In this document: in pieces, positions 16,192 through 45,553 of the stretch
Layout: every line of letters begins with the position of its first letter
How positions within the stretch are numbered: the stretch's first letter is position 1
NCBI GenBank assembly: GCA_951828385.1
Contig: OX639973.1
Location: forward strand, 5,385,200-5,449,199
Length of the DNA: 64,000 nt
Reading direction: 5' to 3'
DNA from: an uncultured Poribacteria bacterium
Lineage (GTDB): Bacteria > Poribacteria > WGA-4E > WGA-3G
Made by a program: the position numbers and the translations under genes
The notes under the pieces: generated by a model
Databases searched by the model: none
What the model was told of the DNA's origin: nothing
What the model saw: only the letters and a program-made list of their open reading frames with translations

Positions 16192-16676
16192 ATTTATCAC
16201 CCTAATACTTAGTGAGTTTGTTTCGCCTATTGCCTCATATATTTTACACGGAATCAACCTTTTACGTCAAGAGAAAATTGGGGTTACGGGAGAAATCGTC
16301 AGTTTTTAGAGGAATAGTTGTCAGCCATTGGCTATCAGTTATCAGTGCGTGTCGCGACCGAGAGGTTGCTCCTACAATGGAATGTTGTGATTTAAAGTTC
16401 GCTCTTATCGGAGAACGAAATGTTCTTAGACCCAGAGGATAAAATATGGGTGTGTAAAGTTTTTGTCACAGTGCGGCGAATATTTTTGAAGTTTGTTGCC
16501 GTTCAAGCGTTAAATACAAGTAGAACATAAATCGAGAAGACCATCGCCTTGAATTATAAATACACACGGAATTCCATCATTCGGAAATACAGAACTGGCA
16601 AGGCATCATTATTGATAAAATTGTAGAGTTGTGCGACATTATTTCTGGGTGAGCGGAGTTGGGCGAGGATCTTAAA
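16192..16676. other. divergent intergenic region before the SelN array
   Basis: Contains one CAGTTATCAGT-type repeat (about 16312-16345) and AT-rich DNA upstream of the first SelN gene. A weak promoter may lie near 16490-16525, but no clear -35/-10 pair is visible. No gene seen. Confidence 0.4.
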
Positions 16677-18197: not shown

Positions 18198-18198
18198 A

Positions 18199-19884: not shown

Positions 19885-20046
19885 TATTTGCGAGGCTATG
19901 CATACTAAAGTTTGGACAAAGTCAAATTAAAATTACGTTTTCCTATGAAAGATGTTATAATGTTTCTGAACCTATGGGCCGTGTTTTGTAATCAAAAACG
20001 AACTACATTTTAGCGATACCCTTAATGCAATATAGAGGTAAGAATC

Positions 20047-20331
20047 ATGCTTTCTATCACGTTGGATATCCCTAGTGAACTTTCAACCCCACTTTCCATT
20101 TCTGGTTATAATCAAGAAAAACTAACTGAGGAGGCAAAACGTTTGCTTGCGCTCTCTCTCTTCGAGCGTAACATTCTCTCTTTAGGGCAAGCTGCAAAAT
20201 TGGCAGAACTACACTTATGGGATTTTATTCGTCTTCTGAGTCAGCAGGATATCCCGATTGCTGAATATGATGATGAGGAAATCCAACAGGAATTGAAGAC
20301 TGTCGAATGCTTAATACAACAAACAAAATAA
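20047..20331 (+). CDS. UPF0175 family antitoxin-like protein
   Basis: 94 aa. Matches UPF0175: an N-terminal beta-strand (SITLDIPSEL), then LTEEAKRLLALSLFERNILSLGQAAKLAEL, and a short helix-turn-helix-like part ending near DEEIQQELK. The family is typically found before DUF3368 PIN-like proteins and is thought to act as antitoxin. ATG with GAGGT 7 nt upstream. It overlaps the next gene by 25 nt. Confidence 0.85.
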   Translation: MLSITLDIPSELSTPLSISGYNQEKLTEEAKRLLALSLFERNILSLGQAAKLAELHLWDFIRLLSQQDIPIAEYDDEEIQQELKTVECLIQQTK

Positions 20332-20834
20332 CCGATGCAAGGAAGTTGATAGCTGTCGCGGATGCCTCATTTGTAATTGGTATTTCTCTTTGCGAACAGT
20401 GGGACATTTTAAAAGCACTTGTCGAAACGCTGATCATCGCCGACAAAGTTTGGGAGGAAGTTGTTGAACGAGGCGAAGGGAAACCGGGCGAAAAAGAATT
20501 GCGACAGGCGACTTTTGTTAAAAGGCAAACCGTTTCTAACACATCAGCAGTGACAATGCTAATGGCAACACTAGATAAAGGAGAAGCTGAAACGTTGGTA
20601 TTAGCAACGGAACTGAGTGTAACGAATGTGTTTGTTGATGACCTACGCGGGCGAAAAGTTGCCCAATCTTTAGGATTGCAAACAGTCGGTGTAGCAGGTT
20701 TCCTTTTGTTTGGAAAAAAGAAGAGCAAAATTAAAGCGGTTCGACCATTACTATTACAACTCCAGCAAAAAGGCTTTCGACTCAGCAGTAGGTTGATCGA
20801 TGCGGTGCTTGAAGAGGCGGGCGAAACACTTTGA
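20307..20834 (+). CDS. DUF3368 PIN-like toxin
   Basis: 175 aa. A PIN-fold nuclease-like protein: N-terminal VADASFVIGIS with the first acidic residue, KVWEEVVERG, DKGEAETLVLATEL with the central acidic pair, VFVDDLRGRKVAQSLGL with the third, and TVGVAGFLLFGKKK. PIN domains use three to four acids to bind Mg2+ and cut RNA. Overlap with the UPF0175 gene indicates coupled translation, as in type II toxin-antitoxin pairs. Lies inside the 19902-20876 inverted-repeat element. Confidence 0.87.
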   Translation: MLNTTNKITDARKLIAVADASFVIGISLCEQWDILKALVETLIIADKVWEEVVERGEGKPGEKELRQATFVKRQTVSNTSAVTMLMATLDKGEAETLVLATELSVTNVFVDDLRGRKVAQSLGLQTVGVAGFLLFGKKKSKIKAVRPLLLQLQQKGFRLSSRLIDAVLEEAGETL

Positions 20835-20969
20835 AAATCAATCTGCACGCAACACGAATTGTCCAAACTTTAGTATACAAAAGTGCATCCAAAGTTGGGT
20901 ATAAGTGAATCATTGCCTTTTTCTAATGGCAATGGTATCCTATACCGAAAAGGAAGTTTAGAAAGAAAA

Positions 20970-23000
20970 ATGAAAACTTTCAACAACAAAATTGCACTTA
21001 ATCTTAACCGTGATGCACAAGTGTCTGTCAAAGGTTTCATCGCTCCGATTGAGTATTCCGGGAGTAACTTTCATGTAAAATGGGATACATTGGCAAATCT
21101 TCGGGTCGCTGAACCAGAAAAACAGTATCCCACCTCAATTTTCTGCGATTTTCTTCCGAAGGCGGCCGTCTCTGTCGGTACGCCTTGGGAAATTGAGCAC
21201 GCCGGTGCTCTGGAATTGCTGAAGCAACTTCATCCGAGTCCATCTCTCGGTATGCGTTGGGATCTGACCCATAAAAATGAATCTCAAGGACTGTGGGCAT
21301 GCCTCCGCGCCTACGACGCTGAATTCGCTGAAATTGTGTTCCGTATCCACGCGCAATTTGATCTAAAGGACGGTTGGTTCACACCATCACAGTTTACCGG
21401 GCATCTTGTTATTGATAGACTGAAAAGATCGGTTGCCTTCTTTCAGATGTACGTCCCTAACGGCATCATAAACTTTGACACTTGGTGGAAGAAGGATCCA
21501 GACGAGGAGGGGCATATTACGGATAGCGGCTTCTGCCCGGAAATGGAACTCAGCACCGGAATAGAAGACATCGTGCGAAACACTGAATTCGTCGAATCTA
21601 TTACGCAAGAAGAAGTGGAGCACCAATTGACGCTCTGCTTCTACAAATCGCAGCACATTCACTGGGTATCGCTGGAAGAAGCGTTGGAGATGGCACCCGC
21701 ACAACAGAAGCCGATCCATGCCATCTCAATAGATGGACCACTCTTGGACGAGTCCTGCTGAGGGAGTGGCAAAAGCCTGAGGGCAGGTGTCCTCTCAAGA
21801 GACGCAATTATTGAATTTTTGAACGAAAATTTTATCAATACGTGGGTCCCCAACTGTGAATTAGGACGTATTCATAGTTTACGGGCACCGATTGCGAAAA
21901 GACGCGAACGCGAAAGCCAGAACTTTGACACATCGCACGCCTTAGCACAAACGATTATCAAGGGGTGGAAAACTGGATCCAAAAAAGGCTCGCCGGTAGA
22001 TTGTTTGGTCATTTCGCCAGCGTTTGAACTGATGGGTAGAGTCCTTGTCAATGATCTTGGCGAAGACAGGGAGCGTAGTGGATGGAGATATGATTACGAA
22101 TATTATCTCGCATTTCTCAAGGAAGCCTTGGCTGGAAAACAACCCGGTTTGGGAAACGTTGTCCTCACGGCTGAAGATCCTTCGCAAGAGGTATTGGACA
22201 TTTTTCGGACGCCAACCGTGGGGTATCAAGACTACACTGTTGTCGTGATTGATACGACAGCATTTGAAAACGGCGGCATGCTAACCATTGACATTAAAAT
22301 CGGCAGGGAAGAGGGTGAGGCGGCGTTCTATCTGTTTGATGGCGCTACCGAACTTTCTACAGAAGAAGAAAAACCGAAAGACATACTTACTTGGACATGG
22401 GTGGAACCCGGTGACACCTGCCAAATTATACATCGTTTTGACCGAGGTCAATTTTTTAAATTAGGTACTACTGGTGGACATTGGGCGAGAGACGAACCGT
22501 GTATCAACGCTTTTCAAACACGAATTTCTGTAGCAGAGAATCTAAAGGAACCCTTAGAAGAAAAACGCCCTGAATCGAACGAGGACACGCCAGAGGCACC
22601 ATTAAGTGAATTGAGTCTTGTACTTGACAAGGCACAACCCTCGCAGGAAATATTAAACGCTTTTCGGGCACCCGGCACTGGTTATCAAGATTACACTGTC
22701 ATTAATATTGATACAACAGCGTTTAAAGGCAGCGGGACATTAATTATTGATATCCGTGTCGGGAGTGCTGACATTTCCGGTTCGTTTGATCTCTTTGATG
22801 GTGACACCGAACTGCCGACAGAAGGTTATCCCGATGCCGCGCTTAACTCCGCGTGGGGAATTGGACCAGGTGAAGCAGGAAAAATCAGACATCGTTTCGC
22901 ACAAGGGAGCGTTTTTAAATTTGGTGCTACAGGCGACTGGTACGGCGAGAAGGGACGTATCAATGCCTTTCGCGCAAAATTTTTTGTAGAGGAAAATTAA
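20970..23000 (+). CDS. selenoprotein N homolog, copy C with doubled C-terminal domain (UGA = Sec264)
   Basis: 676 aa with the UGA at 21759-21761 read as Sec. I choose the ATG at 20970, which matches the N-terminus of copy D; the open frame extends upstream without homology. SelN core: IVFRIHAQFDLKDGWFTPSQF, GHLVIDR, SGFCPEMELS, IDGPLLDESC-U-GSGKSLRAGVLS, FLNENFINTWV. After the first C-terminal beta-rich domain (IFRTPTVGYQDYTVVVID) an acidic linker (KEPLEEKRPESNEDTPEAP) leads to a second copy (AFRAPGTGYQDYTVINID...NAFRAKFFVEEN), absent from copies A, B and D. Stop TAA. It overlaps functionally with copy D, whose ATG begins one base after this stop. The 5' end lies just beyond the toxin-antitoxin element. 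Confidence 0.9.
21779..21794 (+). promoter_or_regulatory. SECIS hairpin of SelN copy C
   Basis: GAGGGC-AGGT-GTCCTC, identical to copy A: loop 23 nt after the UGA with G at position 2. Confidence 0.75.
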
Positions 23001-23001
23001 A

Positions 23002-24573
23002 ATGAAATCGACATCAAACCAAATCACGCTTAATCTTAACCGTGATGCACAAGTGTCTGTCAAAGGTTTCATCGCTCCGATTGAGTATTCCGGGAGTAAC
23101 TTTCATGTAAAATGGGATACATTGGCAAATCTTCGGGTCGCTGAACCAGAAAAACAGTATCCCACCTCAATTTTCTGCGATTTTCTTCCGAAGGCGGCCG
23201 TCTCTGTCGGTACGCCTTGGGAAATTGAGCACGCCGGTGCTCTGGAATTGCTGAAGCAACTTCACCCGAATCCATCTCTGAGTATGTGTGGGGAACTACC
23301 GTACCGTAAAACCGAATCTCAAGGACTGTGGGCATGCCTCCGCGCCTATGACACTGAATTCGCTGATGTTGTGTTCCGCATCCATGCGCAATTTGATCTA
23401 AAGGACGGTTGGTTCACGCCTTCCGAGTTTATAGGGCATCTCGTTATTGATAGACTGAAAAGATCGGTTGCCTTCTTTCAGATGTACGTTCCTGAAGGTA
23501 CTATAAACTTTGGTGCTAAATGGAAGATTGATCCAAACGAGGAGGGGCATATTACAGATAGCGGTTTCTGTCCGCAAATAGAACTCCGCGCTGGCATAGA
23601 AAACGTTGGGCGAAACACTGAATTCGTTGAATCCATTACACAAGAAAAGGTGGAGCACAAATTGAGTCTCTGCTTCTACAAATCGCAGCACATTCACTGG
23701 GTATCGCTGGAAGAAGCGTTGGAGATGGCACCGATACAACAGAAACCGATCCATGCGATTTCCATAGATGGACCGCTCTTGGACGAGTCCTGCTGAGGGA
23801 GTGGCAAACGCCTGAGGGCACGTGTGCTCTCAAGAGATAAAGTTATTGAATTCTTGAACGACAATTTCATTAACACATGGGTCCCCAATTCTGAATTGGG
23901 ACGTATTCATAGCTTACGAGAACCGATTGCCAAAAGGCGCGAACGCGAAGGTCAAACGTTTGACACAACACACCCGTTGGCACAAGCGATTATCAAGGGG
24001 TGGAAAACCGGCGCGAAAAAAGATTCACCCGTGGATTGTTTCGTTATATCATCAGCGTTTGGACTGATGGGTAGACAACTGATACACGACCTCCGGGAAG
24101 ATAGTGAGCGTAGCGAATCTGAATATTATCTTGCATTTCTCAAAGAAGCCTTAGCAGGAAAACAGCCCGGGTTAGGTAATATTGTACTCAGCAGTGAAAA
24201 TCCTTCGCAGGTGGTATTGGACCTCTTTCGGACACCAACAGCTGGAAACCATCAGGATTATACCGTTGTCACAATTGATGCAACTGCGTTTGAAAATGGC
24301 GGGACCCTCACTGTTGATATTGAAATCGGTAGGGAAGAGGGTGAAGCGGCGTTCTATCTGTTTGATGGTGATACCGAACTCTCCACAGCAGAAGAATCGC
24401 CGAAAGATATGCTGACTTGGGAGTGGGGTGAACCCGGTGACACCCGTCAAATCACGCACACTTTCGACCGAGGCCAATTTTTTAAGTTGGGTGTTACCGG
24501 ACATTGGGCGAGAGACGAACCGTGTATCAACGCTTTTCGCGCAAAAATTTCTGTGGAAGCGGAAATCGACTGA
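23002..24573 (+). CDS. selenoprotein N homolog, copy D (UGA = Sec265)
   Basis: 523 aa with the UGA at 23794-23796 read as Sec. ATG with AGAGGA upstream, 1 nt after the copy C stop. SelN core: VVFRIHAQFDLKDGWFTPSEF, GHLVIDR, SGFCPQIELR, IDGPLLDESC-U-GSGKRLRARVLS, FLNDNFINTWV. One C-terminal beta-rich domain. A 236-nt stretch near the 5' end (23029-23264) is identical to copy C (20997-21232), showing very recent duplication or gene conversion. Its SECIS hairpin is altered, so Sec may be inserted poorly here. Last gene of the array. Confidence 0.88.
23814..23829 (+). promoter_or_regulatory. altered SECIS-position hairpin of SelN copy D
   Basis: GAGGGC-ACGT-GTGCTC: compared with copy C the loop changes AGGU to ACGU and pair 4 becomes a G-G mismatch. 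The usual register then lacks a G in the first two loop bases. A shifted fold with loop CGUG is possible. Confidence 0.45.
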
Positions 24574-31199: not shown

Positions 31200-33086
31200 C
31201 TATCGGTTTTTGGAGTTATCCACCACTGCTGCTGCGACTAACCGCTCTAAATCTGGCTCTCTGCCTTCGCGAGAGATCAACTTGTGATTGGCTTCATGAG
31301 CGATCAATTTGCCATCTTTGCCGATAAGCCACCGTGCTGGAATAGATTTAACATCATACTGTTTCACAAGCGGATCCTGCCGTTCTAACCCACTGAAAAT
31401 CTGCCGCCAAGGGATGTCATTTTCCTTGAGGTAGTTGCGCAGCTTCGTTTCGTCAGTATCGAGACTCACCCCGATGATGTCAAATCCCCGATCTTTATAG
31501 GTAGCGTAAATTCTTTTGAGATTCAGTATATCTCCGATGCAAAACCCGTTCCAAACCGCCCAAAAATCGAGTAACACAACTTTCCCGCGATACTGCTGGA
31601 GCGAGATCGGCTTGCTATCAAGGTCGGTTGCAGAAAAATCGGGAACAGGTTTTCCAATTAACGCCAGCGGAGGCGTAACCTTGCTGCGGTATTCCATTGC
31701 GCGTTCGGCGTTGCCTAATTCTTCATGAATCTGAGCAAGAAGAGTTTTAGCGTTGACAAGTTTGAAACGGTCAATAAGTTGATCTACATCTTTTTCCCGT
31801 CCAGCTTCAATATAGAGACGAATAAGTAGGCGGTAGATATAGAAAAAATTTTCATTATCTGGGTGTTGCTGAAGTTGCGCTTCCAAATCGGCAATAGATT
31901 TTTCGAGGGGTGCCTCGTTGAGATCTTCGCTCGGTTTTTGCGCCACCACTTCCACACCCGCAGATGACTTTAGCAGTTTTAAATATCGAGGTATCCGCTC
32001 ACGGCGAGGCAGATAGTAAGGATGGAATAAGTTCCAACTGGACAGATGTTCAATCACTTCCAAGTCAGGGGTTAATGTCAGAATGTCTACGGAATCGGTG
32101 TAATGTTGTCGGAGTTTCGTTGCCAAGGCAGCGGCTGCTGCGCCTTTGGCACCTGCCTGCAGCTCGGGCACATCCCTGAGCAAGACCCAGACGTTCACAA
32201 AGTGCGTGTTGAGCAATTTGATAATTTTCGGTGAGGAGAGCGGACCCGCTCTCAAAGATTTACCCGTTCCTCAGCAGGATTCATCATCAAGTACACCGAA
32301 CAAAAGCACCGCATGAATTGGACGATTCGATGCTTTCGCGAGTTCAACCGCATCTTCAATCGGGGTCCACTCAATTTCAAAGAATTTGTAAAGCACTTTC
32401 TGAAACTTCTTCTCGACTTCTTCCATAGTGATAGCAGTTTCCCAATTGATCGATTTTGGCTGCGCTTCTGATAAACTACAGAGCTCCATGTGAGGCACAA
32501 ACCCTATATCGTGAGTTCTAAAAGCCCCCATATCTACATTGCTGTTGCGGGAAGGAAGTGATAGTGTGAATTGGCAAATCGTTCCGTTGCTGCGATTGAT
32601 TATTAGATGTCCAGCAAATTGGGCTGGTCTCAAATAGGCACCGATGGATGCGTCCAGTACGAAGCGCGTATGGATTCGGAAGACAATATCAGCATATTCA
32701 GGCGAAATTGCCCGTAAGCAGGCTTTCGCGCTGTTTCCACCATATCCGAGATTCATTGTTGCTTCTGGGTGAAACTGATGGAGAAAGGGGAGAATCCGCT
32801 CCGGATCCAAGTCCCAGACTTCCCCAACGTTGACAGTTGATGGTGGAAGAAAGACTTGAAAATCCGCTGTGCTGTAGTGTTTCAATGGCTGCGCAGGTCC
32901 CGGATTGAACAACTTTAGCCACTGTTCCCACGTCATATCTATCGGTTCTGACCATTGTGTTTTGGTACGGTTAAACTTTTCCTCTGTTGCCCAATGCAGG
33001 TTATTCGCTGTGTTCTCGATCGGTTCCCAATGCGCCTGCACTGGGATATTCGCTGAAGTGCTTAGCATATTACGAAGGTCTATCAT
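31200..33086 (-). CDS. selenoprotein N homolog fused to TPR and TlpA-like domain, copy E (UGA = Sec272)
   Basis: 628 aa with the UGA at 32271-32273 read as Sec. I choose ATG 33084-33086 with AGGAG 8 nt upstream. The SelN core is the closest here to animal SelN: IVFRIHTRFVLD, LRPAQFAGHLIINR, NVDM, DIGFVPHMEL, IHAVLLFGVLDDESC-U-GTGKSLRAGPLS and LLNTHFVNVWV. After the thioredoxin-like segment come TPR-like helices (about residues 380-470), then a TlpA/redoxin domain (PVPDFSATDLDSKPISLQQYRGKVVLLDFW). Its active site is WNGFC: Asn replaces the first Cys of CxxC. The cis-Pro region SIPARWLI is kept. No signal peptide. Last of the minus-strand redox genes after two TlpA-like proteins. Confidence 0.9.
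32236..32253 (-). promoter_or_regulatory. SECIS hairpin of SelN copy E
   Basis: Fully self-complementary 18-mer GAGAGCGGGTCCGCTCTC. As a hairpin it has 7 pairs and loop GGUC, starting 24 nt after the UGA with G first. The stem is longer than in copies A-C but lies in the same register. Confidence 0.8.
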
Positions 33087-33111
33087 TATCTCCACTCCTA
33101 TTTTAAAAGAT

Positions 33112-33221: not shown

Positions 33222-34535
33222 CTATTGGTTCGCGGGTTTATCCTTGAGGGCTTCCACTACGAGACCTTCTAACTTCTCCCCTCTCGCCTTATGCGTGATT
33301 AATTTGCCATCTCTGTCAATAAGCCACTGTGAAGGCACACCCGTAATTTTAAACTGCTGTGCAAGTGGATCCTCCTCCCACCTTTCACCGCTATAAATTT
33401 GCCGCCACTGGAGGGCGTTCTCCTTAATGTAGTCCCGCAGCACCGATGCCTCATCATCAAGACTGACACCGATGATGTCAAATCCTTGCTCTTTATAGGT
33501 AGCGTAGACCCTTTTAAGGTTGGGCATTTCGTTAATGCAGAAACCACACCACACTCCCCAAAAGTCGAGCAAGACGACTTTTCCACGATAGTCCTGAAGC
33601 GAAATCGGATTCCCATCAAGATCAGTTGCGGAAAAGTCTGGCACAGGTTTTCCAATCAATTCGTATGTAGGATCAGCCTTACGGTCATACACATCGGCGA
33701 GTTCGGTATTACCTAATTTCCTATAGATGTAGGCGAGTCGCCAGAGGATAGGTTCCGCGTCAGGGTGCTGCTGCTCAGCCTCCTTAAAAACCTCAAGCAT
33801 TTCCTCGTATCGCTCGGCTCTTGAAAGCACATCGAATAACATTCGATAACTATCAAGGTCTTTTGTTGTGCCTGACTTGAGACGCTCTATAAGGACATTT
33901 GCAGATTGTTGATTTCCTACTTTAGTGTAGAGTCTGATAAGCTGTGGATAGACTTCAAAGAAACGAGGGTCATCTGGGTGTCGCGCAAGGGCATCCTCGA
34001 GAGCGGTGATGGCTGCTGCGTCGTTGCCATAGAGGTCTTCCAGTCTGGATTCCCAAACACCGGATGATTTGTAGACTTTTGCAGAGAAACTCAGGTTCAA
34101 ACAACCAAAATCTTCGTTCTCGTGATGTCGGCAGCGGACAAGCGGCATGACATCCCCGTACATCTCGCGTTGGGCACTTTTTTCCTTTCGGTATTCAGGG
34201 TGAAACTGATACCCATAACTCACCGGCATTCCCGGATCGGTGTTCAGGGAAAATATTGTCTTGCCACCCTCTTCGTCCGCAGGACAGATCAAGGTGTTCG
34301 CACCTGCCAAATGTCTCGGATGGAGGTCTGAAAGCCAGTCAGGAAAATCACCGTGCTCTTTCTGATAGGTTTGAATTGCCTCGCCAATTGCAACCAAATT
34401 TTGCGTGCAAACTTCAATATTTTTCTCATGCTGTTCCATCATCAGACCTTCGTTGGGTTTTTCTGCAGGTGTATCTGCGTTCGCAGAAGTGATTGATGAA
34501 CCTATCGCCATTGCCGCAGTCAAAATTGCTCTCAT
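33222..34535 (-). CDS. TlpA-like thiol-disulfide protein with prepilin-like and TPR regions
   Basis: 437 aa from the ATG at 34535 (AAGGAG upstream). Signal peptide RAILTAAMAIGSSITSANA. Residues about 45-165 resemble the DUF1559/H-X9-DG prepilin-like region (CTQNLVAIGEAIQTYQKEHGDFPDWL, LICPADEEGG, VSYGYQFHPEY, MPLVRCRHH, CLNLSFSAKVY). TPR helices follow, then a TlpA/redoxin domain with WCGFC, the PVPDFSATDLDG N-terminal strand and cis-Pro GVPSQWLI. Exported; likely a periplasmic thiol reductase or disulfide exchanger. Paralogue of the gene at 34632. Confidence 0.87.
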   Translation of the reverse strand: MRAILTAAMAIGSSITSANADTPAEKPNEGLMMEQHEKNIEVCTQNLVAIGEAIQTYQKEHGDFPDWLSDLHPRHLAGANTLICPADEEGGKTIFSLNTDPGMPVSYGYQFHPEYRKEKSAQREMYGDVMPLVRCRHHENEDFGCLNLSFSAKVYKSSGVWESRLEDLYGNDAAAITALEDALARHPDDPRFFEVYPQLIRLYTKVGNQQSANVLIERLKSGTTKDLDSYRMLFDVLSRAERYEEMLEVFKEAEQQHPDAEPILWRLAYIYRKLGNTELADVYDRKADPTYELIGKPVPDFSATDLDGNPISLQDYRGKVVLLDFWGVWCGFCINEMPNLKRVYATYKEQGFDIIGVSLDDEASVLRDYIKENALQWRQIYSGERWEEDPLAQQFKITGVPSQWLIDRDGKLITHKARGEKLEGLVVEALKDKPANQ

Positions 34536-34631
34536 TTTGGTATTCTCCTTTTCAGATTTCTTACGGAATAATGTTGAACATTCCCTCATCTATGGAAACT
34601 TATTTGCGTCTAAGCGAACCCTTTCGTTCAA

Positions 34632-35948
34632 CTATTCGTTCTCAACTTTGCTTCGGAGTGCTTCCACTACAAGACGTTCTAACTTCACGCCTCTGGCTTC
34701 GCGTGAGATTAAGGTGCCGTCTCTTGCGATGAGCCACGGGGCGGGGATACTGCGAATATGATACTGTTTCGCAAGAGGACTGTCCCACCCTTTGCCGCTG
34801 TAAATCTGCCGCCAGGGGATGTCACTCTCTTTGAGGTAGTTATGCAATCTCTCTTCATCAGTATCAAGGCTGATGCCGATGATGTCAAACCCCTGATATT
34901 TATGGGTCTCGTAAACTTTTTTGACGTTCGGCATCTCTCCGACGCAAGGTCCACACCAGACCGCCCAGAAATCGAGTAGGACGACTTTCCCGCGATAGTC
35001 TTGAAGCGAAATCGGTTTGCCATCAAGGTCGGTTGCGGAAAAGTTAGGCACGACTTTCCCAACCAACGCTGACGCAGGGTCGGCCTTCTTCCGATATTCC
35101 GCTGCGCGTTCAGAATTACCGAGTGCTTCATGCATTCGCGCAAGTTTATCAAGAACATAGCGGCTGTTTGGATGGTGCTGCTCAAGATTCTCAAAAAGTT
35201 TAAGGACTTCTTCATCTCGATTCGCTAACTCAAGCATCGCACTGAGAACGGAATGTGCCTGAAGGCCATCGGATTTCATATTTGATTTGAAACGGTTAAT
35301 GAGGGTGTTGACATCTTTTTCGCCTCCGACTTCGATGTAAAGCCGAGCGAGCGGAAGGTAGAGATCTAAGGCGTACCTACTGTCCGGTTGTTTCTGAAGT
35401 CCGGCTTCTAAAGCCTCAATGGCTTTCTCGGGGGTTCCGTACATCTCTTCGGGTGTGTTTTCCCAAACATGGGATGATGGATATACCTTAAAGGCGAAAC
35501 TCAAGTTTAGACAGGCAAAGGGTTGATTTTTATGGTGCCGGCACCGGACAAGCGGCATGGCATCACCATACACCTGGCGTTGTCCACTTTTCAGATCTCG
35601 ATATTCTGGGTGAAGCTGGTAACCATAACTCACGGGCATCTTCGGGTCCGCATTACCTGTAAAAATGGGCGTGCCACCCTTTTCATCTGCTGGACACAGC
35701 AAGAGGTTGGCATCTGGCAAGTATTTTGGATAAAGTTCTGAAAGCCAGTCTGGGAGATCCCCGTGTGCTTTCTGGTAGGCTTCAAGTACCTTTCCAATAG
35801 TAAGCAAGTTTTGGGTGCAAATGTCAATGTTTTTCCGGTTCTGTGCCTCTTCGAGATCTGCGCTCGATTTTTGTGCCTGTACTTCCGCTACTGATGCGAA
35901 AGTGATTAGCAAACTCAACACGATTCCTAAGGTCAAAACTAACTTCAT
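34632..35948 (-). CDS. TlpA-like thiol-disulfide protein, paralogue
   Basis: 438 aa from the ATG at 35948 (AAGGAG 9 nt upstream). Signal peptide LVLTLGIVLSLLITFASVAEVQA. Same architecture as the previous gene: prepilin-like region (CTQNLLTIGKVLEAYQKAHGDLPDWL, LLCPADEKGG, VSYGYQLHPEY, MPLVRCRHH), TPR repeats, and a TlpA domain with the canonical WCGPC site and SIPAPWLI. The C-terminal half is also very close to the tail of the BlaR1 fusion at 37649, suggesting they arose by duplication. Separated from that gene by the TnpB element. Confidence 0.88.
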   Translation of the reverse strand: MKLVLTLGIVLSLLITFASVAEVQAQKSSADLEEAQNRKNIDICTQNLLTIGKVLEAYQKAHGDLPDWLSELYPKYLPDANLLLCPADEKGGTPIFTGNADPKMPVSYGYQLHPEYRDLKSGQRQVYGDAMPLVRCRHHKNQPFACLNLSFAFKVYPSSHVWENTPEEMYGTPEKAIEALEAGLQKQPDSRYALDLYLPLARLYIEVGGEKDVNTLINRFKSNMKSDGLQAHSVLSAMLELANRDEEVLKLFENLEQHHPNSRYVLDKLARMHEALGNSERAAEYRKKADPASALVGKVVPNFSATDLDGKPISLQDYRGKVVLLDFWAVWCGPCVGEMPNVKKVYETHKYQGFDIIGISLDTDEERLHNYLKESDIPWRQIYSGKGWDSPLAKQYHIRSIPAPWLIARDGTLISREARGVKLERLVVEALRSKVENE

Positions 35949-36100
35949 TAGGTACGCTCCTTCTTGGGATAAGGGTTTTGCGAAAATAGCCCTATTAAAC
36001 GGTCTTGTGTGATGCGCTCTCGTTTTATTTATTTTCTTCCGAAAGTAGTTCCTGAAATTTAGAAACGACACCCCTTGTCATCTAATCTTCGGGCAGGAAA

Positions 36101-36282: not shown

Positions 36283-37446
36283 ATGGCAAAAAAACGAAAA
36301 AGAAAGCGAAAAGAACACCGCAGAACGTATAAATATCAGATACGCGAACACCCGCAAAATATGCGTCTCGGCAATATGCTGGATGATCTTGCTGATGTCC
36401 ACAACCATTTTTTGCGACTTGAGAACCGCTATTATCGCAGATATGGCAAATATGCGGGGCGTTACCGTCTGCAACCACACTTGACGAAGTTGTTGGATCG
36501 CACCAAGAAACATTGGGCATGGATACCTCGTGACACACTTGACGCTGTAATTATACGCCTCCACATCTCTTTTGAAAGGTTTTTCGATGTCCCAGGCATC
36601 GGTCGTCCGAAATACAAGAAACGTGGAAAATACCGTTCTGCGAAGTTTCAAAGTGGTTATCTCCTTGAAGAAGGTCGTGTCCGTCTCTCTTTTAAAGCAT
36701 GGGACGCACCTTCGCACTCCTTTAAATTCCACAAACGCTGGTTTTCTTTTCATCAGCATCGCGATTGGAAAGGGAATGTTCGTTATATCCAAATCCTTCG
36801 TGATGCTGTCGGAACCTATTGGCTCTATGTCGTGACCGATGATACCTCTAAAGAGGTGCTGCCTGCTACGGGTGAAAGTGTAGGGGCAGACTTCGGTATG
36901 AAAGACGCATTTTTGACGTTGAACACGGGCGAAAAGATACCATCGCCACAATTCTTGAAACACTCCTTGACCGAACTTCGCAACCTCCACAAAAGCCTTT
37001 CGCGCAAAGTCAAAGGTTCTAACAATTGGTGGCGTGCTGTCCGTCAACTCGCCCGGTTGTATCGCAAAGTTTCTAATCAACGCAAAGATTGGCATTGGAA
37101 ACTTGCCACGGACCTGTGTCGGCGATTTGACCTTATCGCCACTGAAACGCTGAACCTTAGAGGCATGAAACGGCTGTGGGGCCGCAAAGTTTCCGACCTT
37201 TCCTTCGGGCAGTTTGTTGAGATTTTGAAGTTCAAGTGTTTCAAACATAATCGTGAGTTCCGTCAAGTCGGACAATGGACCCCTACAACCAAACCGTGTT
37301 CGGATTGTGGGTATCACAACAAAAATCTTTCTCTCTCTGATAGGCAGTGGACCTGTCCTGAATGTGGTTCACACCATGATAGAGATGTCAACGCTGCGAT
37401 AAACATTTTGAGGGCTGCTTGTGGTCCCTCTGTGGAGCAGATGTAA
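36283..37446 (+). CDS. tnpB: TnpB, IS200/IS605-family RNA-guided nuclease (OrfB)
   Basis: 387 aa, full length for the family. Basic N-terminus (MAKKRKRKRK), RuvC-like acidic residues in VGADFGMKDAF, IATETLNLRGM and DRDVNAAINIL, and a zinc ribbon with CSDCG and CPECG. TnpB proteins cut DNA under guidance of an RNA from the element's right end. No TnpA transposase is present, so the element is IS1341-like and non-autonomous. ATG at 36283 with only a weak ribosome site. Inserted between the BlaR1 fusion and the TlpA-like genes, against their direction. Confidence 0.93.
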   Translation: MAKKRKRKRKEHRRTYKYQIREHPQNMRLGNMLDDLADVHNHFLRLENRYYRRYGKYAGRYRLQPHLTKLLDRTKKHWAWIPRDTLDAVIIRLHISFERFFDVPGIGRPKYKKRGKYRSAKFQSGYLLEEGRVRLSFKAWDAPSHSFKFHKRWFSFHQHRDWKGNVRYIQILRDAVGTYWLYVVTDDTSKEVLPATGESVGADFGMKDAFLTLNTGEKIPSPQFLKHSLTELRNLHKSLSRKVKGSNNWWRAVRQLARLYRKVSNQRKDWHWKLATDLCRRFDLIATETLNLRGMKRLWGRKVSDLSFGQFVEILKFKCFKHNREFRQVGQWTPTTKPCSDCGYHNKNLSLSDRQWTCPECGSHHDRDVNAAINILRAACGPSVEQM

Positions 37447-37648: not shown

Positions 37649-40075
37649 TTAGTAAGTATCCGATGGGTTCGTGGATTTGTCTTTGAGTGCTTCCACTACG
37701 AGTCGTTCTAACTTCACACCTCTGGCTTCGCGTGAGATTAAGGTGCCATCTCTCGCAATAAGCCACGGGGCGGGGATACTGCGAATATGATACTGTTGCG
37801 CAAGGAGGCTTCTCCACTTTTGACCACTGAATATTTGCCGCCAAGCGATGTTATTCTTTTTTAGATAATTGCGCAGCCGCGTTTCATCCGTGTCAAGGCT
37901 AACCCCGATAATGTCAAACCCTTGATCCTTATAGGTATCGTAAACCCTTTTGAGATTCGGTATCTCTGTAAGGCAGGGACCGCACCAAACCGCCCAGAAA
38001 TCGAGTAAGACGACCTTTCCGCGATAGTCTTGTAGCGAGATCGGTTTGCCATCAAGGTCCGTCGCGGAAAAGTTAGGTACAACTTCCCCTATCAGTTCTG
38101 ACATAGGGTCCGCCTTTTTCCGATATTCTTCCGCGAGTTCGGTATTACCGAGCCTTTCATGAATTCGGACAAGTTCATCGAGAACATCGCGGTCATCAGG
38201 ATACCGCTCCTCAAGTTTCTCAAAAACTTTCAGCACTTCTTGATGCTGATTTGCGATCTCAAGCATCGCGCCAAGGGCGAAATGTGCTTGAAGGTCGTCA
38301 GGATTCATCGTCGATTTAAAATGGTTAGCGAGGTTCTCAGCATCTTTTTCGCGTCCGACTTCAATGTAGAGACGGGCAAGCGAGCGATAGACATAGAAGA
38401 AAGGTGGATTATCTGCTTGTCGTTGAAGTCCGTTTTCCAAAGCCTCAATGGTTTTTTCGGGAGTTCCATACATCTCTTCAGGTGTGTATTCCCAAACCTG
38501 GGATGAGGGATATACCTTAAAGGCGAAACTCAAGTTTAGGCATTCAAACGGCTGATTGGCATGATGCCGGCAACGCACGAGTGGTATGACATCGCCGTAC
38601 ATCGCTCGGTTTTTCGGCGTGCTTTCTCTATACCCAGGGTGCAATCCGTACCCGTAGCTCACGGGCATTTTTGGATCTATATTCGGCGGAAAGAGAGCTC
38701 TGCCTCCGACTCTATCCCCTGGACAAAGTAAGATATTCGCGTCTGGCAGATATTTAGGGTAAAGTTCTGAGAGCCACTCTGGAAAATCGTCCTGTTCTTT
38801 CTGATAAACTTGAATCGCCTTGCCAATTTCGAGCAGATGCTGTTTGCAGATTTCAACGTTTTCGTCAATCTGTTCTGCCTTCGTCGTTCGGTCAGAAGGA
38901 TACTCCCTTGATGCTGGTTGGGATGTGGATGCTTCCTGAATTTGTGGGGACAGTGCTTCCTTTGGGTCAACCGCTTGTGCCAAACGGACCGCACCTATTG
39001 GGACAGCGAAACAGGTGAGGACGAGCAGTCCTATCCCGACAGCGACCTTTGTTATCGGATGCCGATTCAAGTTTTCGGCGAGAACGGTTCGGAGTCGTTC
39101 TTCAATCTTTGAGGGACATGCCATCGCCACAGCCGCACGCGAAGCAAAACTGGCAACGTTCACATTTCGCACAATATCAAGCAGGTGTTGGGCGTAGTCA
39201 GTCGGTTGATATCCGGCATTTAGCACCTGGTCATCGCATGCTTGCTCTGCTTCTATTCGCATCCAACGTGCTGCAAACCACACAAGCGGGTTAAACCAGT
39301 AGACTGCACACACGACCTGTGCAATCATCTGCATCACCCAATCCCGTCGTTTAATGTGTGCCAATTCGTGGAACAGGACAGCACGCAGCCGCTCCGTTTG
39401 CCAGTTGTCCGCCCCAATTGGCAGCAAAATCACGGGACGAAATACGCCCCATACCATTGGGACTGTGATTTTGTCGCTGAGACGCACACCGAATTTTTGA
39501 TTCCAAGTGGAGGGCAGCGGGTCAATCGTGCCGTTAAAATCATGAGCACGCGTGGATATATGCCAGACCGCACCGATTCCAAAAACCAGACAAACAAGAA
39601 GGAACGCGCTAACACATCCGCAAACTATCGCTATCCAATGTGTCCAAGGAATTGTGCCCGGCATATCGTTCCTACGGATCTCAACTTTCGGTTGAAATGG
39701 CGTAGGTGTGGCTTGCGTTGATGCCTCCGTTTCTGTTGGCACCTCGCTCGGTGCAATTGAAGTAGGATCAACAACTGTTCGCGTAGAAGCGACAGGGGTC
39801 TGAGATATTTCTGCCAACTGATACGTTTCATATTTGACGGGTGCTTGCGGTAAGATATTGACCTCCCACTTCGGGAGCAGAAAAGAAAACAACGGAACGA
39901 TGAGGCATCCAAGGATTGCCATGCTCCAGACGAAGCCGCGCACTGCTGCCGATTTCCGACGGAGGCAGAAAATAAATAAACCCGCCACAGCAAAAATCAC
40001 GAAACTTTTCAGCGTCGTATTGACGAGAAATTTCAGCAGTGGATCTGCATAGAGTGTTTCAATGAATTGCATCAT
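37649..40075 (-). CDS. BlaR1/M56-type sensor peptidase fused to a TlpA-like domain
   Basis: 808 aa. The N-terminal 300 residues are a BlaR1/MecR1-like M56 membrane metallopeptidase: transmembrane helices (FVIFAVAGLFIFCL, GFVWSMAILGCLIVPLFSFLL, WIAIVCGCVSAFLLVCLVF), HELAHIKRRDWV zinc site and the downstream EAEQACDDQVL ligand. After another transmembrane helix (VAVGIGLLVLTCFAVPIGAV) come a prepilin-like region (CKQHLLEIGKAIQVYQKE, VSYGYGLHPGY), TPR helices and a C-terminal TlpA domain with WCGPC. In BlaR1 this side carries a penicillin-sensing domain; here a thiol redoxin occupies the sensor place. The ATG overlaps the blaI stop by 4 nt. Confidence 0.9.
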   Translation of the reverse strand: MMQFIETLYADPLLKFLVNTTLKSFVIFAVAGLFIFCLRRKSAAVRGFVWSMAILGCLIVPLFSFLLPKWEVNILPQAPVKYETYQLAEISQTPVASTRTVVDPTSIAPSEVPTETEASTQATPTPFQPKVEIRRNDMPGTIPWTHWIAIVCGCVSAFLLVCLVFGIGAVWHISTRAHDFNGTIDPLPSTWNQKFGVRLSDKITVPMVWGVFRPVILLPIGADNWQTERLRAVLFHELAHIKRRDWVMQMIAQVVCAVYWFNPLVWFAARWMRIEAEQACDDQVLNAGYQPTDYAQHLLDIVRNVNVASFASRAAVAMACPSKIEERLRTVLAENLNRHPITKVAVGIGLLVLTCFAVPIGAVRLAQAVDPKEALSPQIQEASTSQPASREYPSDRTTKAEQIDENVEICKQHLLEIGKAIQVYQKEQDDFPEWLSELYPKYLPDANILLCPGDRVGGRALFPPNIDPKMPVSYGYGLHPGYRESTPKNRAMYGDVIPLVRCRHHANQPFECLNLSFAFKVYPSSQVWEYTPEEMYGTPEKTIEALENGLQRQADNPPFFYVYRSLARLYIEVGREKDAENLANHFKSTMNPDDLQAHFALGAMLEIANQHQEVLKVFEKLEERYPDDRDVLDELVRIHERLGNTELAEEYRKKADPMSELIGEVVPNFSATDLDGKPISLQDYRGKVVLLDFWAVWCGPCLTEIPNLKRVYDTYKDQGFDIIGVSLDTDETRLRNYLKKNNIAWRQIFSGQKWRSLLAQQYHIRSIPAPWLIARDGTLISREARGVKLERLVVEALKDKSTNPSDTY

Positions 40076-40461
40076 GATGAGGTGTCTCCTTTTTTCGCTT
40101 GCTCGATGCGTTGGCTTAAACGGTCGAGTTCCTCATCCGAGAGGTTAGCATCGGAAACCAGTGTCATGACCGTTTTCTCAATGGATTTATCAAAAAATGT
40201 CTGAAAAATCTGTTTGAGTGCGAAACGTCCTGCCTGATGGCGTGGTTGCGTCGGACGATAAATGTAACGTTTGCCATCTTTTTTGTGGGTGAGATACCCC
40301 TTCTCCTCCAAGATTCGTAACAGTGCCCGAACTGTAGAGTAACTTGGTGGATCCGGGAGGTCTTCAAGGACATCGGCAACAGAAGCGCGCCCGCGTTGAT
40401 AGACGATATCCATGATTTGTCGTTCCCGCCGACTCAGTTTATCGGCCTGGTAATCTTCCAT
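40072..40461 (-). CDS. BlaI/MecI/CopY-family transcriptional repressor
   Basis: 129 aa from the ATG at 40461 (AGAGGTGA upstream). Winged-helix N-terminus (LSRRERQIMDIVYQRGRASVADVLEDLP, SYSTVRALLRILEEKGYLTHKKDGKRYIY), then the dimerisation tail. BlaI-type repressors are inactivated by proteolysis triggered by the BlaR1 partner encoded directly downstream. The palindromic operators in its own promoter (40518-40576) and in three others are the likely targets. Confidence 0.94.
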   Translation of the reverse strand: MEDYQADKLSRRERQIMDIVYQRGRASVADVLEDLPDPPSYSTVRALLRILEEKGYLTHKKDGKRYIYRPTQPRHQAGRFALKQIFQTFFDKSIEKTVMTLVSDANLSDEELDRLSQRIEQAKKGDTSS

Positions 40462-40517
40462 ATTTATCACCTCTTTCTTTTGGTAATGTGCTGATATTTT
40501 TCTATTTATAAAGAATA

Positions 40518-40584: not shown

Positions 40585-41970
40585 TTAGATCTCAACACGC
40601 ACAAACGCGAGATACGCACCCGCCAGCAAAACGATGACAAACAGTGTCAACAGCAGCAACTTCGTCGCAGCGGTGTTGAAATCTTTACCGATGTTGCGCG
40701 TATCTTCAAACCTCGGTACCGCCTCTGGATTGACAGGTTTCTGGGACATCCCCTCGCGAACGCCCATGATATGGCGACTCTCTGGGTCGCCTCTCTCCAT
40801 ATCTACGATGAATTCTCGGTATTCACGGGCGTAACGCTGAGCATTCTCAGTAAATTGCTGGTACCGATCCAGACCTGTTCCAGCAAACGCCTCAAAGAGA
40901 TGCTGGAGGAGTGCCGCGGGTGAGATACTGGTGATCGAGCGCGCACGTTGAACTTGGGTAATCTTAAAGGTTAAGTACTCCCCAGCCAAGCGTTCGCCCC
41001 TTACTGCTATTTTGGTGTGCCACTCACCTCTTATCCTTAGCATTTTTTCGTCATTTGACTGGTACCAGGCGTATCGCCAAGTTCTCCGAAGTTTGTGATA
41101 ACTTTGGCCGTATCGGTCAGAATATTCATGGCGAGACATAGATGATGAAAAGCCGCTCGCAAGTGCGGCGAGCGTACTCGGCATAAAAGCGACAAAAGTG
41201 ACCCACGTCAACAGAAGTATCACAAGACTCACGGCACTCCGTTGCACACGCGCCGAGACTAATAGCCCTAACGCCAGAAACAGACACGTGTACAAAAGCG
41301 CGATAAAGAGGATGATACCTAAGCGTCCCCACGCTTCAGTACTCAGGTGAATCTCATTTGCGGAGGAAATCATTAGGAGGTTCACTAACATAGCCAGCAT
41401 AAAGGGAATGGTTATACTTACCAACGCCCCCAGAAACTTACCGATCAGCACGGTATGTCGTGGGATTGCATTTGCCAACGTTAATCGGAGCGTGCCGTGC
41501 TCGCGTTCGCCGGAGATCGCATCAAACGTAAATAAGAGCGCAATGAGACTCAAGATATAACCGATGATAAACGTCCAATCGACTTGGGAAACGTCGGGTC
41601 CAACATTCTTCATATTTATGTTGACATCTGGATATTCCAGTCTCCAGAATCCCCTGCTACCAGAAGGGCTGTCAACCCTATCGGGTAAAAAGGCTTCTCC
41701 ACCCGCCGCGCAGAAATGGAGCGGCGACGGTTTTTTGTAAAGCGTTCCGGGTCCCTCGTGTGCCAGTGTATAGAGACTGTCGTCGGCGCGAGACGTTAAT
41801 AGGTTCATGGATGCAGTGACAGCGTCGTGATACTTCTGGACCCGTTTTGGATGCTCTCGGATATGTCTCACAGCATTGGTTACCATCAGTGCCAGCAACA
41901 ACACAGTCGTCAGCGCAAATCGGAGGCTATTCAGATTATTGTATATTTCGCGTTTTGTGATATGCCACAT
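40585..41970 (-). CDS. ABC-2 type permease, type 2, cassette 1
   Basis: 461 aa membrane protein. N-terminal helix (LRFALTTVLLLALMVTNAV), a large non-membrane part, then five helices with the ABC-2 signature ISGEREHGTLRLTLANAIPRHTVLIGKFLGALVSI, and a last helix at the C-terminus (LLLLTLFVIVLLAGAYLAFV). Probably one half of an exporter or membrane-remodelling complex with the type 1 permease at 42252. No ATPase is encoded nearby. Paralogues at 44016 (very close) and 49559. Confidence 0.87.
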   Translation of the reverse strand: MWHITKREIYNNLNSLRFALTTVLLLALMVTNAVRHIREHPKRVQKYHDAVTASMNLLTSRADDSLYTLAHEGPGTLYKKPSPLHFCAAGGEAFLPDRVDSPSGSRGFWRLEYPDVNINMKNVGPDVSQVDWTFIIGYILSLIALLFTFDAISGEREHGTLRLTLANAIPRHTVLIGKFLGALVSITIPFMLAMLVNLLMISSANEIHLSTEAWGRLGIILFIALLYTCLFLALGLLVSARVQRSAVSLVILLLTWVTFVAFMPSTLAALASGFSSSMSRHEYSDRYGQSYHKLRRTWRYAWYQSNDEKMLRIRGEWHTKIAVRGERLAGEYLTFKITQVQRARSITSISPAALLQHLFEAFAGTGLDRYQQFTENAQRYAREYREFIVDMERGDPESRHIMGVREGMSQKPVNPEAVPRFEDTRNIGKDFNTAATKLLLLTLFVIVLLAGAYLAFVRVEI

Positions 41971-41994
41971 AAGTAGTCAGTTACCAGTAACCAG

Positions 41995-42102
41995 TTAACA
42001 GTTAACAGTTTTCAGCCTCCGCAGTAAAGATGTCAACTCATACATCCTCAAAGTTAAATCATGAGATTTTTGCCAAACTTGCAACTTCTTAAAATCCTGC
42101 AT
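41995..42102 (-). pseudogene. truncated four-helix-bundle (23S rRNA intervening-sequence protein-like) gene
   Basis: ATG (42100-42102) with AGGAG 5 nt upstream opens MQDFKKLQVWQKSHDLTLRM, the typical N-terminus of the four-helix-bundle family (usual length near 120 aa). The frame runs into the repeat sequence and stops after 35 aa. Probably a remnant cut off by the repeat, in the 41971-42251 gap. Confidence 0.65.
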
Positions 42103-42251
42103 ATCTTCTCCTATGGTAGGTTTTAGAATCATCAATTTATCAGTTACCAGTTACCAGAGAAGAGGGTTTTTATGAACCATTTCCTTCTTCTCTTAACTGA
42201 CCACTGGTTACTGACCACTGGTTACTGGCCACTGGTACACTGGAAACTCCT

Positions 42252-43766
42252 TCACACTTCACTTTTGACAAAAACCAGAAATATTGCGATAAAGAGAAGG
42301 ACATTCATTGTGAGCAGCAGGAACAGATCCGGCACTGCTCGTTTTGCGTTGATGCCTATATCGCTTCTCTGAAAAGAGAATTGCGGGAGTGTGTCCCAAT
42401 CGACGGCACTCTGATCGGAAGAAAACCACTGTCGGGACGCAAATATTTTCTCATCATGAAAGTAATTGATGATTGCTTGTCGGTAGTTTTGTGTTGCTGT
42501 GAAAAAATCTTGGATGCCATTGAGGTCGGTGCCTGCCCACGCTTCGGTTGCGGCATCATACAACCCCGCAGGGGAGAACTTCAACAACATTCGCCCTCTA
42601 TTTGCCGGTTGGATGTAGATCGTCTCGAATGCCGGTTTTCGGATGAGCCATGTGCGTTCCGCGGTATTGACCGTTAGCGGTCCAAAGAAGCGGAAATAAT
42701 TCTGGACGTGCGGCACGTAAGGTTCAAATTTCGCGTCAATCGTTTCAAGGTCGCTTGAAGCACGTCTGAGGTGGTGAAACACTAAACGTGATGGCTCGTC
42801 TGATATCGCCCCATAAATGTAATCTCCCAAACCTTCTGCTGATGATAGGACAGGGTCGTTGCGGAGAAACTGCCCGCACTCTCTCTCAAGTTCCTCCCAG
42901 ATCTGTTTAACCTGATGGTAAGCGGCGGATTCCGTGTCCGTGCGCGGGGCAGTATCCACTGCGGTGAGAATCAGATTTGGGTAGACGAGCACTAAGAACC
43001 CCCAGACGAACATCGAGAGGATGAGCGCAGTACTGGTGCGGCGTGTGATTGCAGAAATGAGCATGCCGATGAGGTAAAACAGTGATAGATAGACGAGGGA
43101 CATCAGAACAATCCCACCGATCCGCAGAAAATCATCGGTGTTCAGGGAAATCATGGCGGAAGTCGTCAGCAAAATGAGCATCAGGAGCAGACTCACCAAC
43201 AAGGGCACGAACAAACAGACCATCGCACCGATATATTTGGCGAACAGGATGTACCCACGTCCCACGGGATGGGATAGCACTAAGCGTAGCGTGCCGTGTT
43301 CGTATTCGCCAGCGATAGCATCGTAGGCGAAAATAAGTGCCAGTAGGCTAAGAATCCCTTGAAAAATAAGGACAATATCAATTGAAGTAAGGATGTTGAA
43401 CAATGGGTTTTCCGCCTCAGATTTGTCGGCATCCCAAATTGTCGGCGTAAAAGTATGGGAAACTCTAATTTCGTTCCCCAATCGCTTATCTAAACCGGTG
43501 TTGAAAATGCTCAATGGGTTCGGCGGCCGGTCAACGTGCATCCCCCACGGTCCAAGCATTGCATATGAATAGGTGTTGCTCTCCTGCTGGAGTTCCTGCC
43601 GGTGGGTTTTGACGGCGGTGTTATAATCCGCCAACCGCTGTTCATAGTCCTTGATGAGCACAACGGTATTCGCGACCACGAGCAACAGCATAATCACAAC
43701 AGCTGCCGCAAATCGGAACGTCATCAGATTGTCGAGGAGTTCTCGCCGAATGAGTGTTAGAAACAT
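42252..43766 (-). CDS. ABC-2 type permease, type 1, cassette 1
   Basis: 504 aa. N-terminal RRELLDNLMTFRFAAAVVIMLLLVVANTVVL helix, a long extracytoplasmic region, helices around ILSLLALIFAYDAIAGEYEHGTLRLVLSHPVGRGYILFAKYIGA (ABC-2 signature), three more helices, and a final helix (LFLLLTMNVLLFIAIFLVFV). AGGTGA precedes the ATG. Pairs with the type 2 permease downstream. In cassettes 2 and 3 a sigma-TPR-thioredoxin gene stands directly before this gene; here only a scrap of it remains. Confidence 0.87.
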   Translation of the reverse strand: MFLTLIRRELLDNLMTFRFAAAVVIMLLLVVANTVVLIKDYEQRLADYNTAVKTHRQELQQESNTYSYAMLGPWGMHVDRPPNPLSIFNTGLDKRLGNEIRVSHTFTPTIWDADKSEAENPLFNILTSIDIVLIFQGILSLLALIFAYDAIAGEYEHGTLRLVLSHPVGRGYILFAKYIGAMVCLFVPLLVSLLLMLILLTTSAMISLNTDDFLRIGGIVLMSLVYLSLFYLIGMLISAITRRTSTALILSMFVWGFLVLVYPNLILTAVDTAPRTDTESAAYHQVKQIWEELERECGQFLRNDPVLSSAEGLGDYIYGAISDEPSRLVFHHLRRASSDLETIDAKFEPYVPHVQNYFRFFGPLTVNTAERTWLIRKPAFETIYIQPANRGRMLLKFSPAGLYDAATEAWAGTDLNGIQDFFTATQNYRQAIINYFHDEKIFASRQWFSSDQSAVDWDTLPQFSFQRSDIGINAKRAVPDLFLLLTMNVLLFIAIFLVFVKSEV

Positions 43767-43777
43767 CGCATTATCAC

Positions 43778-43886
43778 CTAATCTGATAGGAGTGCCTCAA
43801 TCATCCAAATTAAGGGCTGACCGTTTATGATATTCGAACTCCCAAAGCTGTATTGCCAAATCTTGTTGATGCTTATCATCGGACAT
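43778..43886 (-). pseudogene. relic 3' end of a third sigma-TPR-thioredoxin gene
   Basis: On the minus strand 43858 to 43778 encodes WQYSFGSSNIINGQ...LIWMIEALLSD and a TAG, matching the last 26 codons of the sigma genes at 47098 and 52659. Everything upstream of it is lost. A different frame opens at ATG 43884-43886 (GGAGG 6 nt upstream), giving a 29-aa peptide across the relic (43797-43886); it is probably accidental. Promoter module 2 still stands upstream. Confidence 0.75.
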
Positions 43887-43948
43887 CTGTCTGCCTCCCT
43901 TTAGGTGTTCACAGGAAACCTGTTGAACAGGCGTTAAATTAGTTTATA

Positions 43949-44007
43949 TGCTAATATTTTAGCATATACGAAAAACTATGTCAAATAAAAATGCTAAAAA
44001 TTCAGCA
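43949..44007 (-). promoter_or_regulatory. BlaI-type promoter/operator module 2 (cassette 1)
   Basis: TTGACA (43979-43984), 17 nt, TAAAAT (43956-43961). Operators TGCTAATATTTTAGCA (43949-43964) and TGCTAAAAATTCAGCA (43992-44007). Confidence 0.82.
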
Positions 44008-44015
44008 TCAATTAA

Positions 44016-45407: not shown

Positions 45408-45409
45408 AA

Positions 45410-45550
45410 GTAGTCAGTTTCCAGTTAACAGTTTCCAGTTAACAGTTTCCAGTTAACAGTTTCCAGTTTCCAGAGAAGAGGGTTTTTATGAACCATTTCC
45501 TTCTTCTCTTAACTGGCCACTGGTTACTGGCCACTGGTACACTGGAAACT
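45410..45550. repeat. CAGTTTCCAGTTAACAGTT-type repeat between permease genes
   Basis: Tandem 7-nt units (CAGTTTC, CAGTTAA) run for about 60 nt, then appear inverted (ACTGGCCACTGGTTACTGG). Parts, including the segment around GGGTTTTTATGAACCATTT, are repeated almost exactly at 42160-42250. Confidence 0.65.
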
Positions 45551-45553
45551 CCT

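Follow-up and report, generated by a model that had tools for sequence, protein, structure and literature searches.

Thioredoxin-fold proteins in which a non-canonical or dead domain stands beside an active one are known, for example among members of the PDI family. Loss of selenoprotein N (SelN; SELENON or SEPN1 in animals) leads to myopathy in humans, and what the protein reacts with is still debated. SEPN1 has a thioredoxin domain that encompasses the selenocysteine (Sec), and trapping mutants at C427/U428 have been described (PMC7474598). In algae, the selenoproteins include SELENON and TlpA as separate families, with Sec located within the TlpA proteins themselves; the accessible part of this algal selenoproteome describes no fusion of SelN with TlpA (PMC7539508).

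Here we describe a gene in which a SelN module and a TlpA-like domain are joined in a single reading frame. It is located in the window, a stretch of 64,000 nucleotides of DNA from a sponge-associated bacterium (Candidatus Poribacteria). The gene and its parts are the following:

31200-33086, minus strand: selenoprotein gene encoding the SelN-TlpA fusion, 628 residues when the UGA is decoded as Sec; stop codon TAG at 31200-31202
33095-33099, minus strand: AGGAG, a putative ribosome-binding site, 8 nt upstream of the ATG at 33084-33086
31956-33086, minus strand: selenoprotein N module, residues 1-377, with a thioredoxin-like beta-alpha-beta core around SCUG
32271-32276, minus strand: Cys271 codon TGC and Sec272 codon TGA (SCUG motif)
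32236-32253, minus strand: bacterial SECIS-like hairpin GAGAGCG-GGUC-CGCUCUC, 17 nt 3' of the UGA
31653-31955, minus strand: helical TPR-like spacer, residues 378-478, of variable length between orthologues (dN/dS 0.44)
31203-31652, minus strand: TlpA/ResA (AhpC-TSA family) thioredoxin-fold domain, residues 479-628
31539-31553, minus strand: degenerate active site W512-N513-G514-F515-C516 (canonical form WCxxC)
31263-31289, minus strand: insertion, residues 600-608, with H601, K602, L603 and G608 invariant; present only in fusions without the first cysteine

Reading frame and selenocysteine decoding

The fusion is a genuine, conserved Sec-encoding gene of Candidatus Poribacteria. The minus-strand frame that runs from the ATG at 33086 to the TAG at 31200 contains a single in-frame TGA (32271-32273), which is the 272nd codon counted from the ATG bearing the Shine-Dalgarno-like site. 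Along this frame the SelN sequence (...DDESC-U-GTGKSLRAGPLSS...) is followed by the helical spacer and then by the TlpA domain (...LLDFWAVWNGFCIGD...). Most fusion orthologues have an AGGAG-like site upstream of the SelN start. A sequence-only reading of the locus had described it as a fifth UGA-interrupted SelN that continues in the same frame into a TlpA-like domain. Both parts of this description hold: five UGA-containing SelN frames are counted in the window, and a search of other genomes recovered the same architecture in 21 full-length orthologues of the genus (20 aligned sequences and L110, found in addition) and in one orthologue of a sister genus. A recent or chance origin of the fusion was rejected on account of these orthologues.

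The UGA is found at the same place in all 21 genus orthologues and in the sister-genus one, the frame is otherwise open up to its terminal stop, and the codon pair is TGC-TGA in 20 of the 20 aligned sequences. The genomic attributes of a bacterial selenoprotein are present: the genome that carries the fusion encodes SelA (604 bits), SelD (363 bits) and a tRNA-Sec (76 bits) that adjoins selB (355 bits), and a SECIS-like hairpin follows the UGA. The selD gene (G000:C1:1330118-1331041) carries an in-frame UGA of its own.

A hairpin is located directly after the UGA in every SelN gene examined. Across 23 SelN genes, its stem forms standard pairs in 94.4% of the cells, above any version slid by 1-3 columns, and its apical loop contains an invariant U30 and near-invariant G28 and G29. 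The covariation is modest, with one pair altered on both sides and the others varying on one side or not at all. No named RNA was found in Rfam at the fusion gene.

Pairwise comparison gave dN/dS values of 0.174 for the SelN module, 0.145 for the TlpA domain and 0.44 for the spacer. The purifying selection acting on the TlpA domain indicates that the region beyond the UGA is translated. A TTG six codons past the UGA could in principle open a 351-residue frame, but CTG stands in its place in L032, L110 and several more SelN paralogues, none of the start codons beyond the UGA is conserved among the fusion orthologues, strongly conserved SelN sequence continues across the UGA, and the full Sec machinery and the SECIS-like hairpin are present; we therefore reject as extremely unlikely the explanation that the UGA is a plain stop at which SelN ends and after which translation of the TlpA half begins anew from its own gene. 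UGA also serves as the terminal stop of several fusion genes (L027, L029, L032 and L110), so that this codon has two meanings within one gene.

The SelN module and its paralogues

The SelN module aligns to human SELENON with 29% identity over 335 residues (E 9e-49), and both the SCUG motif and the cysteine of ACLxA line up, the human sequence being a provisional copy of the part that follows the N-terminal segment. Two structure models were calculated. The first, based on close sequences only, was discarded (pLDDT 62.6, with the catalytic region below 50). The second, based on 64 diverse sequences (pLDDT 87.3), contains a beta-alpha-beta-alpha-beta-beta-alpha order around SCUG, and this modelled fold agrees with the thioredoxin domain around the Sec of SEPN1 (PMC7474598). 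A search of the PDB with the SelN profile found no solved homologue, and comparison of the SelN and TlpA profiles found no relation between them.

SelN is massively expanded in Poribacteria. It is found in 65 of 85 genomes of the phylum, with up to 18 matches per genome, and nearly all of the matches listed contain an internal UGA. In its own genome, the SelN module of the fusion has 12 matches, each with exactly one TGA. The aligned copies carry the motif CUGxG or CUAxG, and none has a cysteine at the Sec position. Many copies are unfused, lacking both the TlpA domain and its cysteine. Some of the other paralogues, for example that of L008, have a signal-like N-terminus.

Four more SelN genes are arranged in tandem on the plus strand of the window, at about 16653-24573. 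Each of them continues in frame into a C-terminal domain (DYTVVEIDTTAFE...) that measures some 100 residues or more, is doubled in one of the genes and gave no significant Pfam match where tested. A SelN-like gene in genome G018 (L072:4001-4850, plus strand) reads DDESCC and then leaves the frame; it has no UGA at the Sec position and is perhaps recombined or a pseudogene.

The TlpA domain, its gene cluster and the origin of the fusion

The domain at the C-terminus of the fusion exceeds the Pfam cut-offs for AhpC-TSA (66.5 bits against 26), Redoxin and Thioredoxin_8, and its best Foldseek matches are ResA-like proteins (TMt 0.76-0.85). Its scores for the NCBIfam families ResA, TlpA and DsbE are far below the cut-offs. 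The spacer that connects it to SelN had been read from the sequence as TPR-like helices. Its helical nature is reproduced in the second model, while Pfam support for TPR is weak (TPR_19, E 0.089). Spacers of about 30 residues occur in L037-L040, of about 70 in L111, of about 100 in the window gene and of about 140 in L029-L036.

All 23 fused-type domains of the genus have Asn or His in place of the first cysteine of the active site, which is present in all 25 unfused TlpA domains of the loci included in this count. The window gene does not have WCxxC, and all fused domains of the genus read WN/WH[S/G]FC. The difference from the neighbouring paralogues seen in the sequence-only reading, WNGFC in the fusion against WCGFC and WCGPC, is confirmed. 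The fused domains of the genus keep the second cysteine, have Leu in place of the helix Pro, and carry Asp or Glu at residue 519, the equivalent of ResA Glu80. Retention of this acidic residue suggests that part of the active-site chemistry may survive. Cys516 is present in all 21 full-length genus orthologues while Cys171, Cys203 and Cys571 drift, which hints that Cys516 still matters. As 53 of the 150 positions of the domain (35%) are also invariant in the same set of orthologues, its invariance is by itself weak evidence of function.

A fusion from a sister genus of the same family (G064, L111:892-2745, minus strand) has intact SCUG and WCGFC...E.P motifs and lacks the HKL insertion of the WN/WH clade. 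In the phylogenetic tree, the fused TlpA domains form one clade (97/94), and L111 branches outside the WN/WH clade (100/94). The fusion arose in one event, within a cluster of TlpA genes. Because a fusion with WCGFC branches outside the WN/WH clade, the fusion came first and the cysteine and the proline were lost later; the loss of the first cysteine is, to judge from this tree, secondary.

A search for separate genes with their own starts at the fusion site, the arrangement that the sequence-only reading had set against its own proposal, found none. Genomes G005 and G023 each contain a fused-type fragment with TlpA alone (candidate loci L051 and L052); the two were considered as separate-gene relatives and rejected, since both are cut by contig ends. 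A scan of 84,980 species genomes returned matches in Poribacteria only, with patterns that used Cys-for-Sec codons or were specific to the SelN subfamily and are unfair outside the phylum.

In genome G015 (L053:3544-4401, plus strand) an in-frame deletion inside the fusion has brought the middle of SelN next to the late part of TlpA, so that Sec and WNSFC are gone; it is either real or an assembly error or collapse. The fusion orthologue L110:1489-3390 (plus strand, genome G084) has Gly (AKAGLRA) in place of Cys123, which is invariant in the others.

The fusion stands at the end of a cluster of genes on one strand, in the order BlaI, M56/TlpA, TlpA, TlpA, SelN-TlpA. The other members of the cluster are:

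33222-34589, minus strand: TlpA paralogue adjoining the fusion, with WCGFC and a signal-peptide-like N-terminus
34632-36071, minus strand: TlpA paralogue with WCGPC and a signal-peptide-like N-terminus
37649-40075, minus strand: BlaR1-like M56 metallopeptidase with TPR and a TlpA domain (WCGPC)
40072-40470, minus strand: BlaI/MecI-type repressor (Penicillinase_R)

Genes for BlaI, M56/TlpA and TlpA again adjoin the fusion, on the same strand, in several other genomes. The genetic link between SelN and TlpA proteins, drawn earlier from the fusion, is borne out by the fusion itself and by this conserved cluster. The association places SelN genetically in a disulfide-exchange pathway. Gene order suggests that expression of the fusion is probably under the control of the BlaI and BlaR1-like regulators at the head of the cluster.

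Within 37649-40470 (minus strand), the C-terminal part of the BlaR1-like protein consists of a pilin-like segment, TPR and TlpA, without a penicillin sensor. It is possible that the M56/TlpA and BlaI pair constitutes a redox-sensing version of BlaR1/BlaI. A TnpB-like IS605 OrfB gene (OrfB_IS605, Cas12f1-like_TNB; 36283-37446, plus strand) is inserted into the TlpA cluster, between two of its genes and opposed to them in orientation. At 40585-47086 (minus strand), ABC-2 type permease genes of two families, each repeated, form alternating near-duplicate pairs.

No signal peptide, membrane anchor or hydrophobic N-terminal stretch was found in the sequence of the fusion, which in this respect shows neither the secretory or membrane location of SELENON nor the extracytoplasmic location of TlpA/ResA. 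Because its N-terminus is not hydrophobic, the fusion is probably located in the cytoplasm, unlike its TlpA relatives, which are exported.

Proposed function and comparison with known systems

We propose that the fusion protein acts as a cytoplasmic, Sec-dependent thiol-disulfide reductase. In line with proposals for SELENON, the chemistry would be carried out by Cys271 and Sec272 in the SelN module. The earlier suggestion that the selenol may be the active nucleophile agrees with the Sec site, and not the TlpA site, being the only complete conserved redox motif left in the fusion. The ancestral TlpA CxxC was probably a relay that delivered electrons to the SelN site or received them from it. 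In the genus with WN/WH, this relay would have been given up, and the TlpA domain would now probably be a module to which disulfide partners dock or bind as substrates, Cys516 acting as an accessory thiol at most. We infer docking because the catalytic residue was lost while constraint on the domain continues. Under BlaI and BlaR1-like control, the protein would belong to a response to redox stress that can be induced. Judged from sequence, the chances are about even that this explanation is correct as a whole, from the cytoplasmic Sec reductase with a TlpA module turned into a non-relay docking domain to its BlaI-controlled response.

It was also proposed, from the sequence, that the remaining TlpA cysteine is an internal partner of the selenol. 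In such a split active site, Sec272 would be the nucleophile and Cys516 the resolving partner, the two forming an interdomain selenenylsulfide. The persistence of Cys516 in the 21 full-length orthologues despite the loss of the first cysteine, together with the drift of the three other cysteines and the retained acidic residue 519, is consistent with this arrangement. However, the second cysteine of a CxxC motif is normally buried and poorly nucleophilic, the spacer between Sec and Cys ranges from about 30 to 140 residues in the orthologues, a difference of more than 100, and SelN already has the neighbouring Cys271 and exists in many unfused copies without a TlpA domain. We consider a split site rather unlikely. 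As an internal partner of the selenol, Cys516 is possible but not favoured, given the variable spacer, the unfused SelN copies without this cysteine and the intact CxxC of the sister genus. The more elaborate proposal, in which Sec272 and the orphan Cys516 constitute a split selenenylsulfide switch, the TlpA domain having borrowed its partner's selenol while L111 keeps the ancestral two-site relay, is in our judgement unlikely.

The TlpA domain could instead be a leftover without catalytic function, kept only to stabilise the protein; its invariance would then be structural. The active site of the genus has lost Cys and Pro and its Glu is weakened, and with 35% of the domain positions invariant, Cys516 alone says little about function. 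But the dN/dS of the domain (0.145) is no higher than that of the SelN module, and the domain has gained the invariant HKL..G insertion; these two features argue for a positive role and make a dead leftover rather improbable. Alternatively, the TlpA domain may still relay electrons, with Cys516 as a one-thiol site and with thioredoxin or a low-molecular-weight thiol, for instance, as the external partner. There are precedents for thioredoxin-fold proteins with one cysteine that act through mixed disulfides, and both Cys516 and the acidic residue 519 are retained. Since the cysteine that was lost is the first, nucleophilic one and the partner is purely hypothetical, we regard a one-thiol relay as distinctly unlikely, and the docking module is our preferred reading.

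The locus provides anchor-free versions of SelN that can be compared with one another: the Sec site, the two-site form of the sister genus and the one-site form of the window genus. With both of its redox sites intact, the L111 fusion constitutes a natural control for the ancestral state.

The searchable prokaryotic selenoproteome literature, whose coverage is incomplete, makes no mention of SelN in bacteria. No paper that combines 'selenoprotein N' with 'Poribacteria' was found in the searchable literature, which is likewise incomplete and no proof of novelty. As the literature searched mentions no bacterial SelN, as algal selenoproteomes list SELENON and TlpA separately, and as the SelN profile matched no solved structure, we see in the fusion a selenoprotein of known kind that has entered a new architecture, in which its partner domain has undergone a change specific to the lineage.

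Similarities and differences with three known systems can be observed. The fusion resembles animal SELENON/SEPN1 in the homology to its luminal part, the SCUG motif, the cysteine of ACLxA and the thioredoxin-like core around Sec. In contrast to the animal protein, it is bacterial, its UGA is decoded by SelB with a SECIS inside the coding region, it has no signal or transmembrane segment, it is fused to TlpA, and it has many paralogues per genome. With the TlpA/ResA oxidoreductases (AhpC-TSA / Redoxin) it shares the Pfam families and a ResA-like fold, but its first cysteine is Asn or His, its helix Pro is Leu, and the signal peptide is absent. Like PDI-family-type proteins, it contains two tandem thioredoxin-like modules, one of which has an incomplete active site. 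Its active module, however, is a Sec-containing SelN rather than a PDI a-domain, and the order of the modules and the spacer between them are unrelated to those of the PDI family.
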